From: Nitrosopumilus oxyclinae
GTDB lineage: Archaea > Thermoproteota > Nitrososphaeria > Nitrososphaerales > Nitrosopumilaceae
NCBI RefSeq assembly: GCF_013407165.1
Contig: NZ_CP026994.1
Location: forward strand, 620,001-684,000
DNA: 64,000 nt
Direction: 5' to 3'
Position numbers and translations under genes: made by a program. The notes beneath the pieces were generated by a model. It saw nothing but the letters and a program-made list of their open reading frames with translations, made no database searches and was not told the DNA's origin. This document shows, piece by piece, positions 3,744 to 22,060 of this stretch (positions are counted from its first letter, which is position 1; every line of letters begins with the position of its first letter).

Positions 3744-5216
<1,473 letters not shown>

Positions 5217-5354
5217 GACATGGAAAGTGTACGGGTGTACATAATCTTCACATTGAAATCATCGATGCAATGCATCACGAAAGTGGTGTATGAAGGATGT
5301 AGTGGGCCACTTACCGGTGGCTTGCAATGATCGTCGTGCATAGTCGTGTAATAT
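5217..5354 (+). other. 16S-23S internal transcribed spacer without tRNA
   Basis: The spacer is about 138 bases. It holds the 3' arm of the 16S stem (5231-5254) and the 5' arm of the 23S stem (5329-5345). There is no tRNA-like cloverleaf and no TPsiC-arm motif, so the tRNA-Ala found here in many euryarchaea is absent, as is usual for group I.1a Thaumarchaeota. Confidence 0.8.
5329..5345 (+). other. 5' arm of 23S processing stem
   Basis: The 17 bases gatcgtcgtgcatagtc pair with gactatgcgcgatgatc at 8376-8392 (two G-U pairs). They enclose 23S in a long helix that continues after a short internal loop into the terminal 23S helix (gtggctgaa with ttcagccac). Confidence 0.8.
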
Positions 5355-8366
<3,012 letters not shown>

Positions 8367-9768: not shown

Positions 9769-10914
9769 TTATTCAAATGTAGTATCAATTGTAAATGAAG
9801 CCAATGCATTACAAATGATTGGCTCACCTGCTGGGATTGTAGGAGTAAAAATTACTATGTGGTAATCTCCGGATTGACCTGTAAATTGGAATTTTCCTTC
9901 CCATGATTCTTGTTCATCTAACATTGGTGATGAAGGAATTAAATCAAAAGAATTTTCCATTGTTTCTGAATTTGTCTGGATGAAGTTATCTCCAGTTTCA
10001 GGAAATTGTGAATATGTTGAAACTGAATCAATTACAACTGTGTTTATTTGTCCGTCTGGATCATATTTCTTAAACCATTCATTTGTCATATCAAATTCTT
10101 CATGGAATGATTCGGTAGAATGTTTAACTGGTGCAGAAAATCCAATTTTTAATCCTGCAGTATCGACAGTATTCCCTTTAAGGCATTCTGATGTCATTTT
10201 AATGTCTACTTCATATGGTTTGTTAGGTTTTTTTGGTTTGAGAATTTTTAGATAGATGTCATTGTCTCCATCATAATCTAAATCCGCACTGCCTTCAAGA
10301 TGTATTAATTTTAATTTTTTAAAGTTAGGATCTTTTAGAGCTTTCTTGATTTGATCCCATGCTTTGACATAATTTTTCAAAGCTTGAGAATATTTTTCAT
10401 CTTCCAATAATACATTTCCTTTATCTATTTTCTCAATGGCTTTTTCAATTTTTTTAACTCCTTTATCACTCATAATAATTTCTTCTAGTTCATTTATTGC
10501 ATTTTCTACAAGTGATTTGTCTAATTGTGTGATGTTGATGTTGATATTTTTAATTTCATCTTTAATTTCATTAGATAATTTTTTATCTTTTAAAATATTT
10601 TCTAATTTCTTTATTGCCTGTTGATCTGCATTTAGAACTTTTTTACCATGTTTAAAATTAATTGTAGATTCATCTTTCCAATATTCTGAATTAAGACTTT
10701 TTTCTAATTTCTTTATTGCTAATTCTAAATTCTTTTTTGATTTTTTACTTATGTTATCATCGTTTTTGATATTCTCTAATTGGTTAATGATGTCTTGTTT
10801 TTCTTGTTGTACAGTAGAGGCAAAAATTTCAAAATTACCTGAATACGTCATTGATAATAGTAATACTGAGAATACTGTTACTGCAAATCTTTTCATTTCT
10901 CTATTTTTGTTCAT
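9769..10914 (-). CDS. Secreted coiled-coil protein with a Ca-binding-like loop
   Basis: Starting at ATG 10914, or at the ATG at 10896, the protein begins MKRFAVTVFSVLLLSMTYSG, a clear export signal; the GTG at 10932 would put extra residues before it. Residues after the signal form long charged helices (many K/E/N, QLENIKNDD type) resembling a coiled coil. Next comes an Asp-rich loop, DLDYDGDNDIYL, like EF-hand or thrombospondin type-3 calcium loops, and then a beta-rich C-terminal domain. The family is unknown and it is probably extracellular or surface-attached. It is convergent with the histidine kinase, 14 bases away. Confidence 0.75.
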   Translation of the reverse strand: MNKNREMKRFAVTVFSVLLLSMTYSGNFEIFASTVQQEKQDIINQLENIKNDDNISKKSKKNLELAIKKLEKSLNSEYWKDESTINFKHGKKVLNADQQAIKKLENILKDKKLSNEIKDEIKNININITQLDKSLVENAINELEEIIMSDKGVKKIEKAIEKIDKGNVLLEDEKYSQALKNYVKAWDQIKKALKDPNFKKLKLIHLEGSADLDYDGDNDIYLKILKPKKPNKPYEVDIKMTSECLKGNTVDTAGLKIGFSAPVKHSTESFHEEFDMTNEWFKKYDPDGQINTVVIDSVSTYSQFPETGDNFIQTNSETMENSFDLIPSSPMLDEQESWEGKFQFTGQSGDYHIVIFTPTIPAGEPIICNALASFTIDTTFE

Positions 10915-10931
10915 TCTACTACATTGACACA

Positions 10932-10980
10932 CGTCTATAGACGATATTACAAGTTATTCCGATTTTCCCTATATTGGGAA
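10932..10980. promoter_or_regulatory. Two palindromes in the promoter of the secreted protein
   Basis: A perfect 12-base palindrome, cgtctatagacg, lies at 10932-10943. A second, ttccc-tatatt-gggaa, lies at 10965-10980 and encloses a TATA-like core for the minus-strand gene starting at 10914. Their placement fits an operator, but no regulator is identified. A near copy of the first element (gtctatagatgatat) sits at 11872-11886 before the methyltransferase. Confidence 0.35.
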
Positions 10981-13223: not shown

Positions 13224-14249
13224 ATGAATTCTAGTTTTCTTGTATTGTTATTGATATTTCCGATTTTCCTTACTCCGTCATTTGCAACTGTGAATGATTT
13301 CACTACTGACAAAACATTGTATCATACTGATGATACTATTGTAATTTCTGGCAATGTGGATTATGATCCTGAATTACTATCTATAATTATTCAAATTATT
13401 ACCCCTAGTGGTACTGGTTTGGCTCATGTTGATAGTGCTATTCCAAATACTGATGGATCATTTTCAAAAACGATTAATGCCGGAGGTCCAACTTGGTCTG
13501 AAAATGGTCAATACACAATCAAAATTTCTTATGCTGGAAATCTTGAAAAATTTATGGAGTATGAAAAATCCTCTGAATATGTTCCTCCAACTACACCCAA
13601 TATTGCCCCTAACACTACGCCAAACACTAAACCAAATCCTACTCCTACAAACATTACGCCAAACATTGATGATGATCATCCTTTTACTGAAAATCCAAAA
13701 ATGATAATTTTAGGTTTCCCTGCTTTTGATAAATCGCCACAATACTATATTGATAGATACAATGCTGAATCAACATATCGTTCTTGGTTTGATTCTCAAT
13801 TCCCACTTTACGATATAGATGAAGTTGTAGGCTATTCTCCTACTCACATTGAAAATTTCCCTGCTTTTGATAAATCGCCACAATACTATATTGACCGATA
13901 CAATGCTGAATCAACATATCGTTCTTGGTTTGATTCACAATTTCCTGAGAGAACCATTTATGATATTTTAGGATTTTATACATACATCCCTGATTGGATT
14001 AAACTCTATGCTCAAAATTGGGCTATTGGTGGGATTTCTGACACTGAATTTATGTCTGGCTTAAATTTTATGATACAAAATAAAATTATAGTGATTCAAA
14101 ATCTTGAAAATAATTCCCTTTCCACTGATGATATTCCTTCTTGGTTTAGAAATACTGCTCATTGGTGGTCTACTGATTTAATTTCTCAGCAAGAGTTTAT
14201 CAACTCTATAAAATATCTTATTCAAGAAGATATAATATCCATTGATTAA
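13224..14249 (+). CDS. Secreted repeat protein with two C-terminal WW-helix modules
   Basis: A 341-residue protein with an N-terminal signal peptide (SFLVLLLIFPIFLTPSFA). It continues with an Ig-like beta domain (residues 22-115, macroglobulin/PKD type) and a Pro/Asn/Thr linker. Two identical 30-residue repeats follow, starting FPAFDKSPQYYIDRYNAEST. The protein ends with two helical modules of the form IPxW-x4-A-x-WW/NW-x4-I-x3-EF-x3-I/L-x2-I-x-I. The same modules occur in the protease at 20579. It is likely cell-surface or exported; adhesion or S-layer association is only a guess. Confidence 0.8.
   Translation: MNSSFLVLLLIFPIFLTPSFATVNDFTTDKTLYHTDDTIVISGNVDYDPELLSIIIQIITPSGTGLAHVDSAIPNTDGSFSKTINAGGPTWSENGQYTIKISYAGNLEKFMEYEKSSEYVPPTTPNIAPNTTPNTKPNPTPTNITPNIDDDHPFTENPKMIILGFPAFDKSPQYYIDRYNAESTYRSWFDSQFPLYDIDEVVGYSPTHIENFPAFDKSPQYYIDRYNAESTYRSWFDSQFPERTIYDILGFYTYIPDWIKLYAQNWAIGGISDTEFMSGLNFMIQNKIIVIQNLENNSLSTDDIPSWFRNTAHWWSTDLISQQEFINSIKYLIQEDIISID
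13715..13944 (+). repeat. Internal 89-base direct repeat
   Basis: Units 13715-13803 and 13856-13944 are offset by 141 bases (47 codons). They differ at four positions, and every difference is synonymous (AGA/CGA with GAT/GAC, TCT/TCA, TTC/TTT). Both lie inside the secreted protein gene. Confidence 0.9.
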
Positions 14250-20578: not shown

Positions 20579-22060
20579 TTAATTCAACAAACAGTATGCG
20601 TACGATGGAGTAAATGATGGATACATTATGTTATTTTTATCGCTAATGTGTTTTAATCCAATTGAATGCCCTAATTCATGAGTCATGATTGTTTCAACAC
20701 TGTTTACATCGTATAATTGGAAACTACCGTCACAATTGTAATCTCCTAATGTAACTTCTACAACTCCCTTTCCAATATGTGCATGCCCTAATACCCCGTC
20801 TCCGATATTGCGCACAACCCATGTTACCCATACATTTGCTTCATGTTTGAGGTTGGTTACTGTAAATTTTATTTTTGCACTTTGCTCATTCGTTGATAAT
20901 TCTTGCTCTTCCCAAAAACTAAAAGAATTTTTTAATGTGTCTACATGGTTTAATGGAAGCCCTGTGGGTTGATCATTGATGAATACTTTGTAGTTGATGA
21001 TGTAAGTTCCGTTGTCAATTTGATATGTAGGATCTGGAAATTTAGATGATGCTCTTTTTACCTCTTCTTCAAAATTCCATTTAACATAATCTCTTAGGAA
21101 TTTTTTAATAACATCCCTGCTTGGGTTGGGGTATTCGATGTATCTTTTTTCTTTTGAGATATTATTTGAAATATCTCTGAGATATTTTTCAAACAAATGA
21201 ATTTCAAGATCTAATTCTTTTTGAGTTTTCTCTGGCAGTTTCTCAATTTTAATTTTGATGATTCCATTTTCAATTAAATATTGAATGGCTGCAACAAACT
21301 CTGTATCTTCTAATTGCTTGTCTGCCCACCATCCTGCATTGGTTTTTACCCACTCTGGAATCTTTTCATTTGATTGAGTGATTGGATTTGCTGGTGGAAT
21401 CTGAATTATTTTGTTTTCTATTAGATATATCAAGGCTGAATTGAATTCTGAATCCTCCACACTTCCTTCTGACCACCATTTTGCAATCGGTCTTACCCAT
21501 TCTGGGATTGATATTATTTGCACTGATTTTGATTGCTCTGGTTTTTCAGTTGGTGTGTAAGGATATTTTGAAATTACATCGTTGATGAAATCTTTATAAT
21601 TATTAATCACTATGCTATCTGGTTTCTCAATTGATGCTTTTTCAAAATATGCAATTGATTCTTGATATTCTCCCAAATACCCAAAACCAACTCCCATACC
21701 TGTTAAAGAAATAACGTCATTGGGCTTATACTGTAATACTTTGAAAAATTGTTTTAGTGAATTAGAGTGATCATCGAGGTTACTTAGTGCAATCCCCTTC
21801 ATTTTTAATGTCGAAATATTGTTTGGAGCAATTTTTAAAATCTCATCGTAAATTGTGATTGCTTGTTTGTATTCTCCATTGTTGAAATGATTATTAGCTA
21901 GATTGAACATTATTTCTGGATCATCTTCTGTTTGAGCAAACACTAATTCGCTAGAAATTGTCAAACTAATACCAATCACAAATAAAAAATAAAAAATCCC
22001 TTTCATGGATATTTTTATATTTTTATTTTGTTTATAGTTTATTTCCAAATTGTACTTCAT
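20579..22060 (-). CDS. Secreted TPR / matrixin-type metalloprotease
   Basis: A 493-residue exported protein. A signal helix lies near residues 19-43 (GIFYFLFVIGISLTIS...FAQ). Three or so TPR units follow at about 47-150. Next come two WW-helix modules (IPEWVRPIAKWWSEGSVEDS at about 184, and IPEWVKTNAGWWADKQLEDT at about 232). The C-terminal protease domain has zinc motif HELGHSIGLKH (His461, Glu462, His465, His471) and Met-turn NIMYP. The start at 22060 has an aaggag motif five bases upstream; ATG 22006 is an alternative. The substrate is unknown. Confidence 0.85.
   Translation of the reverse strand: MKYNLEINYKQNKNIKISMKGIFYFLFVIGISLTISSELVFAQTEDDPEIMFNLANNHFNNGEYKQAITIYDEILKIAPNNISTLKMKGIALSNLDDHSNSLKQFFKVLQYKPNDVISLTGMGVGFGYLGEYQESIAYFEKASIEKPDSIVINNYKDFINDVISKYPYTPTEKPEQSKSVQIISIPEWVRPIAKWWSEGSVEDSEFNSALIYLIENKIIQIPPANPITQSNEKIPEWVKTNAGWWADKQLEDTEFVAAIQYLIENGIIKIKIEKLPEKTQKELDLEIHLFEKYLRDISNNISKEKRYIEYPNPSRDVIKKFLRDYVKWNFEEEVKRASSKFPDPTYQIDNGTYIINYKVFINDQPTGLPLNHVDTLKNSFSFWEEQELSTNEQSAKIKFTVTNLKHEANVWVTWVVRNIGDGVLGHAHIGKGVVEVTLGDYNCDGSFQLYDVNSVETIMTHELGHSIGLKHISDKNNIMYPSFTPSYAYCLLN

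Follow-up and report, generated by a model that had tools for sequence, protein, structure and literature searches.

A small, mostly paired module of exported Nitrosopumilaceae proteins with a probable role in envelope retention

Few cells in the ocean are as abundant as the marine ammonia-oxidizing archaea. Here we describe a module that is associated with export, is mostly present in pairs, is specific to the family Nitrosopumilaceae and is carried by unrelated cargo proteins without other recognisable anchor. The explanation we favour, with a probability of roughly 0.6, is that the module pair retains these exported proteins, which have no other anchor, at the cell envelope. The most likely site is the inner face of the S-layer or the gap that separates it from the membrane.

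The window analysed is a stretch of 64 kb from the genome of Nitrosopumilus oxyclinae. A first-pass annotation of its letters had claimed four modules in two unrelated secreted proteins, and both open reading frames and all four modules, each of 38 residues, were located:

13224..14249, plus strand: host protein 1, 341 aa, with signal peptide, Ig/MG2-like domain, Pro/Thr/Asn linker, two 30-aa repeats and C-terminal module pair
13224..13286, plus strand: signal peptide of protein 1 (residues 1-21), recognised by eye
13287..13565, plus strand: putative Ig/MG2-like beta domain of protein 1 (residues 22-114), recognised mainly by eye
13716..13946, plus strand: two copies of a 30-aa repeat of protein 1 (13716-13805 and 13857-13946), from sequence comparison
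13986..14099, plus strand: module 1 of protein 1 (residues 255-292), a seed of the profile, E 1.1e-22 in the genome-wide profile search
14133..14246, plus strand: module 2 of protein 1 (residues 304-341), reaching up to the stop codon, seed, E 4.5e-22
20579..22060, minus strand: host protein 2, 493 aa, with signal peptide, TPR repeats, module pair, helical linker and matrixin metalloprotease
21935..22006, minus strand: signal peptide of protein 2 (residues 19-42 if the second ATG is the start), from the strict script and the sequence
21611..21919, minus strand: TPR repeats of protein 2 (about residues 48-150), Pfam TPR_1 E 1.1e-13 and TPR_2 5.3e-12
21395..21508, minus strand: module 1 of protein 2, seed, E 1.5e-22
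21248..21361, minus strand: module 2 of protein 2, seed, E 5.5e-23
20609..20956, minus strand: matrixin domain of protein 2 (residues 369-484), Pfam PF00413 E 5.6e-9

The two genes lie about 7 kb apart on opposite strands, and in each protein the module starts are exactly 49 residues apart. The second to fourth modules are 37-45% identical to the first, and a six-frame scan of the 64 kb with strict and loose regular expressions returned these four modules only. The contexts named by the first-pass annotation were found, the Ig and repeat regions of protein 1 with the Ig domain seen by eye, and the position between TPR and matrixin in protein 2 confirmed by Pfam. Its order of elements also stands, as the modules follow the signal peptides, but they do not adjoin them: the pair is C-terminal in protein 1 and mid-chain in protein 2. 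The pattern printed there fits the modules except at its end, where it is one residue short (x3, not x2, precedes the final II); with the ending (L/M)I-x2-II there is no match in protein 1, and with (L/M)I-x3-II there are two in each protein.

Protein 1 matches no Pfam family at E<=1, and its residues 16-145 give a sub-threshold match to NCBIfam TIGR04216 (S-layer glycoprotein; E 0.0028, 16 bits, cut-off 400). Its 30-aa repeats have the same protein sequence and differ at 5 of 90 bases, and appear to be a recent duplication separate from the module. Protein 2 has both marks of a matrixin, the PF00413 match and an intact HExxHxxGxxH zinc motif (HELGHSIGLKH, residues 461-471, at 20648-20680 on the minus strand). 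The modules of both genes, recognised by ORF length, are also about 7-8 kb apart in six congeners (G002, G007, G009, G010, G012, G013). Several relatives have, upstream of protein 1 and on the opposite strand, a gene (L031:1573-2673; also L032, L034, L035, L048) whose two diverged modules are separated by about 210 residues; a search at 9769-10932 of the window gave no significant match to it. Positions 4001-8000, perhaps rRNA genes, have G+C near 50% against 28-36% elsewhere in the window.

A profile of the four copies detected 33 modules in 19 genes of the single-contig genome of 1.585 Mb. The four seeds score E of about 1e-22; the other 29 copies match at E 1.1e-19 to 1.4e-8, which excludes chance. 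After masking of the modules the 19 host genes fall into 16 unrelated families. A Pfam domain over cut-off is present in five hosts, namely two matrixins, a polysaccharide deacetylase, a phosphonate-binding protein and a plastocyanin, and in none of the other 14. Ten hosts of other genomes were also compared with Pfam; four had no match, and six had a domain (phosphate-type binding protein, GH18, SNase with fn3, pentapeptide repeats, HYR and Hcp-like). The recognised cargo, as judged from these domains, is of extracellular kinds. The plastocyanin-type host (L148:2200-2754; G000:C1 about 1218700-1219250) has an in-frame stop inside the module, just after the signal peptide, perhaps as a pseudogene or through a sequencing error; its relatives (L104, L107, L109) have open frames. 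When hosts of this genome, of contigs from a scan of 84,980 species and of congeners are taken together, 137 distinct hosts are obtained, which form 30 clusters, two of these being short contig-edge fragments. Outside the module the hosts are unrelated.

Column frequencies were determined over 192 modules, with columns 2 and 4 preselected as P and W, which removed 14 of 206. Conserved are I/V1, P2, W4, K/R6, A9, W11, W12, I17, D19 and F22, followed in the second half by I/L26, Y/F28, L/M29, I30, I34 and I35; N7 and N8 are each present in about 60% of modules. AlphaFold2, given the pair of protein 1 and 48 other pairs, predicts two helical hairpins with moderate confidence (pLDDT 84.5, pTM 0.75), with helices at 5-15, 21-33, 54-64 and 70-82 of the 89-residue stretch and a low-confidence linker between the hairpins; the full TPR-matrixin model is weak (pTM 0.49). 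Comparison with the PDB by Foldseek gave three matches (best E 5.4), VIA-align gave a best Z of 2.0 in one row among 19 chains, and a sequence profile search of the PDB gave no relative below E 0.3.

No match over curated cut-off fell on the module in NCBIfam for the two window proteins, or in Pfam for these two, the 17 other hosts of this genome, ten foreign hosts and 41 single modules. Several sub-threshold Pfam matches on the module were set aside: F-93_WHD in L150 (E 0.0023), MRP-L51 (E 0.0007) and DUF2644 (E 0.006) in L149, phage gp16_SPP1 in protein 2 (E 0.22) and, as the best match of single modules, NirdL-like_HTH (3 of 41, E 0.044). The WW domain (PF00397), alike in name only, gave no match, and the predicted model is all-helical, not a three-stranded beta sheet. 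The module resembles SHOCT, a short hairpin too, in its G-x-I-S/T-x-x-E-F turn. The half with IPxW and WW has no equivalent in SHOCT, whose model (PF09851) is absent from the Pfam matches of the 41 modules at E<=1, a search whose HMMER filters drop most matches above 0.1. No description of the module appeared in the titles and abstract openings of the open-licence papers searched.

The taxonomic range was assessed with a profile of 41 diverse modules. In a sample of 201 genomes of the order, matches occur in 52 of 52 listed genomes of the family and in one of 149 from other families. A sample of 200 genomes of the phylum gave 30 matches within the family, all from genomes that are also in the order sample, and one among 170 others. 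That no genome of the family is among the non-matching ones is judged from the row order of the listings, and module counts per genome in both samples are to be read as "at least" figures, 37-38 candidates having been scored. A single narrow peptide pattern served for the scan of 84,980 species; among the best 80 of 91 matches, the 79 loci kept are titled as Thaumarchaeota or simply as archaea, including Nitrosopumilus, Nitrosarchaeum, Nitrosotenuis, Nitrosopelagicus and similar. The recurrence that the first-pass annotation had proposed to seek with an HMM of the four copies is thus seen in every listed genome of the family, and the range of a phylum that it had suggested is narrowed by the two samples to what appears to be one family, the Nitrosopumilaceae.

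The match outside the family in the order sample (G182) looks like a true host ORF, and a signal peptide was recognised in it by eye. It comes from a genome that is 87% complete in 230 contigs and perhaps reflects contamination or transfer. The one in the phylum sample (G291) was rejected as a chance match to a 26-residue piece of a helicase. A locus titled Nitrososphaeraceae (L038) looks like contamination, being 92% identical to a Nitrosarchaeum protein. A metagenomic contig of 7 kb that is listed as viral (IMGVR_UViG_3300006340_000718, L245) carries a module pair on the substrate-binding protein of an ABC operon that adjoins genes phage-like by eye; viral use of the module was not inferred from it, as it is perhaps a chimera or an integration junction. 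No relative was found in viral contigs scanned with the four-copy alignment or in phages searched with one pair, and a plasmid search gave one insignificant match.

Two modules are present in 104 of the 137 hosts, one in 33 and three in none. In 98 of the two-module hosts the modules are neighbours, with starts 48-51 residues apart in 95 of these pairs, and in the remaining six they are split by 140-216 residues. A neighbouring pair with a spacing of 57 (L137) involves a spurious partial match in a broken frame, and one host counted as single (L147) has a degenerate second copy by eye, so that at least one such case exists. Of the 125 complete hosts, 61 have the module no more than 4 residues from the C-terminus, and in many of these it runs to the final residue. 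In 25, some with one module only, it falls among the first 60 residues of the open frame, and in 39 it is internal, 33 of the latter belonging to the TPR-matrixin family. The linkers around the modules are rich in Ser, Glu, Thr and Pro.

This distribution bears on two alternatives. A sorting or secretion tag for a dedicated export or processing machine, comparable to C-terminal domains elsewhere, would explain the many hosts that end with the module, but not those where it is internal or near the N-terminus, and all 19 hosts of this genome already have a signal peptide; we regard such a tag as very unlikely. Still less probable, and the least so of the readings considered, is a generic structural repeat, a folding aid or spacer without common partner. 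A small domain on Ser/Glu/Thr/Pro-rich linkers would suit it; the limit of one or two copies, the tight period, the mostly terminal position and the conserved polar K/R6 and N7-N8 speak against it.

Identity inside a pair is 85-95% in some proteins and about 40% in others, and for 13 of 28 paired modules of this genome the own partner is the nearest relative. Pairing may have been re-made or homogenised more than once, a history that modules of this length are too short for a tree to settle.

A signal peptide is present on all 19 hosts of this genome, 16 by a strict script and three by eye, one of the latter being followed by an in-frame stop. That of protein 1 is rejected by the script because its n-region has no K/R. 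Over all hosts the strict script accepted 101 of 137, seven of the rejected ones being cut at a contig edge, versus one among the 43 remaining ORFs of 150 aa or more in the window, which are not necessarily all genes. A permissive test for a hydrophobic core was passed by 123 of 129 hosts versus 10 of the 43 control ORFs. The six hosts that did not pass (L048, L069, L071, L080, L117, L134) are by eye apparently broken or truncated frames of draft contigs. The co-occurrence with signal peptides anticipated by the first-pass annotation is therefore borne out, and the mostly cytoplasmic hits that it had named as contrary evidence were not encountered.

Other anchors were sought in the 125 complete hosts. 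A transmembrane-like window after residue 80 was seen in two, once inside the module and once abutting it, and a lipobox-like string in one, within its signal peptide. By these sequence criteria the complete hosts show no other recognisable anchor. The same genome has a further surface-sorting device for secreted proteins, PEFG-CTERM (TIGR04296), which differs from the module in being a 30-residue C-terminal tail. It has 11 matches in this genome, 10 over cut-off, and by position none lies within the 19 module genes; taken alone, 0 of 11 does not reach significance. One report (PMC6593220) likens this tail to the membrane-anchoring PEP-CTERM.

Hosts that lack another anchor might be held by the module as a peripheral membrane anchor, its Trp-rich hairpins entering the interface of the archaeal membrane. 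Each module has several conserved Trp, Tyr and Phe residues, and two kinds of host, the substrate-binding protein and the plastocyanin, are expected at the membrane. However, the mean net charge of the module is -2.7 (192 copies), unfavourable for anionic membranes, and the predicted helices have only 11-13 residues, so we consider direct membrane insertion distinctly unlikely.

The phosphonate-binding host adjoins, by eye, genes for an ABC ATPase and a permease, both in this genome and on the metagenomic contig L245, and because of this neighbourhood it must reach the membrane permease. Relatives outside the family were found in four of 18 genomes searched, two of these being of one genus, with 31-35% identity. 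None of the four has the module, and each begins with a hydrophobic stretch that could be an anchor or a cleaved signal, so the argument that the module replaces an anchor is ambiguous.

A second indication of location comes from a host of 1086 aa. The same genome encodes two S-layer-type proteins of 1712 and 1737 aa, of which this host is a shorter paralog, with 34-38% identity to both across 967-1005 aligned positions. Several hundred residues at the C-terminal end of the full-length forms are missing from it, and its own end is a module pair. We take the long proteins to be S-layer proteins from their length and their resemblance to NmSLP, the S-layer protein of N. maritimus. With the N-terminal 364-residue piece of the 1712-aa protein as query, a search of 41 genomes matched many ORFs in two size classes. 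Three S-layer-type proteins of this genome and 20 fetched ones were examined, ORFs of G386, G006, G017, G387 and others being left out. All 12 short paralogs among them (1063-1165 aa, from several Nitrosopumilaceae) carry the module, 11 as a pair ending at the last residue and one as a single copy, versus none of the 11 full-length proteins (1678-1950 aa). Seven of the 12 were already known as module-bearing from the module searches; among those picked by S-layer match alone (G012, G016, G163, G384, G385) the module is present in five of five. Short paralogs (L186, L225-L233, L243, L244) thus occur in addition to full-length ones in several Nitrosopumilaceae.

Since the full-length proteins are without the module, the lattice itself is not anchored by it. 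In the published N. maritimus structure the last domain of NmSLP is not seen and is placed between S-layer and membrane, and an anchoring role of this domain is only speculated (PMC11153153). The module pair that ends the short paralog would, by analogy, point into the same space.

The S-layer link is not universal. The S-layer query had no match in seven of 25 genomes of the genus; six of these seven were searched for the module and all were positive, with 4 to 21 copies, including two genomes that are 94% and 96% complete (G005 and G011). A genome 98% complete in one contig (G006) has 24 modules; its single S-layer-type ORF is 1535 aa long, and none of the short class is seen there. A genome outside the family (G020) gave weak S-layer matches and no modules. 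The co-occurrence with the S-layer that had been proposed for checking is accordingly found for the short paralogs and fails both for the full-length proteins and for those module-bearing genomes in which the S-layer query has no match. A module protein of this genome that lies about 0.9 kb upstream of a full-length S-layer-type gene (L143:2215-2952, L184) was also considered as a linkage and dropped, as full-length relatives occur in only two of 18 congeners searched.

Pairs might instead bind pairs, so that hosts assemble into complexes with one another and the short S-layer paralog, where present, ties them to the lattice. The strict pairing and the presence of the module on every short paralog examined are consistent with homotypic contacts, as are the paired modules nearest to their own partner; in the predicted model, conserved aromatics would lie on more than one helix face. 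But a tandem pair may equally satisfy its own contacts within the chain, in keeping with the pTM of 0.75 for the pair, and in some genomes rich in modules no short paralog was seen. We think such assembly rather unlikely.

A bolder possibility, which we hold to be quite doubtful, is that in many Nitrosopumilaceae the short S-layer paralog sits in the lattice by its outer domains, with its module pair hanging beneath, and that around twenty further proteins with the module, comprising enzymes, binding proteins and copper proteins, are recruited by this pair or by its partner. If true, S-layer docking would be a modular extracellular assembly peculiar to marine ammonia oxidizers. The genomes that bear modules and give no match to the S-layer query weaken this docking reading and also our preferred explanation.

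Envelope retention at or beneath the S-layer remains the reading that the sequences suggest to us, and it could work as follows. The host is exported by the cleavable signal peptide seen in its sequence. Each module would then fold as a hairpin, predicted to be built around W4, A9, W12, F22, I26, L29 and I30, leaving K/R6, N7, N8 and W11 available for contact. Through avidity the pair would bind a single envelope component shared across the family, so that it could lie away from the active domain of its cargo and be placed at either end. Proteases, deacetylase, substrate-binding proteins, copper protein and short S-layer paralog would in this way be held at their site of work. The inner side of the S-layer is indicated because modules are present both on the binding protein of an ABC transporter operon and at the end of the short S-layer paralog. 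The full-length counterpart of this paralog ends below the lattice (PMC11153153).

The closest parallels in mode of action are two well-studied modules. SLH is a small tandem helical module at either end of exported enzymes and S-layer proteins that retains them non-covalently at the envelope. The module shares the small size, the tandem arrangement, the predicted helical fold and the position at either end of exported proteins, but is used in twos, unlike SLH, which comes in threes. SLH domains bind a secondary cell-wall polymer; these archaea are not known to possess a pyruvylated one. The SLH model (PF00395) matched one of 41 modules at E 0.19, which is not significant, and none in the full hosts. 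Dockerins consist of a tandem pair of short helical repeats with calcium-binding loops of DxNxDG type, and they occur, frequently at the C-terminus, on a wide range of unrelated extracellular enzymes. The tandem duplication of a short, predicted helical repeat on extracellular proteins is found in the module too. Dockerin type I (PF00404) gave no match at E<=1 for the 41 modules and protein 1, or among the best 25 of 28 matches of protein 2, and none in the other hosts searched by Pfam; the column frequencies of the 192 modules contain no motif like the calcium loop, and no cohesin-type partner of the module was identified. A survey of methanotrophic archaea names both Nitrosopumilus and dockerin.

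On best reading, then, the module works most like SLH or dockerin modules and by sequence tests belongs to neither. It is best regarded as an undescribed, family-specific module of envelope retention, without a model in the profile libraries searched here. Its profile could annotate many hypothetical proteins per genome as envelope-retained, and the module itself might serve as a fusion tag for display in these archaea and as a bait for its receptor. The module bears on how the S-layer and the proteins underlying it are held to the cell in these archaea.
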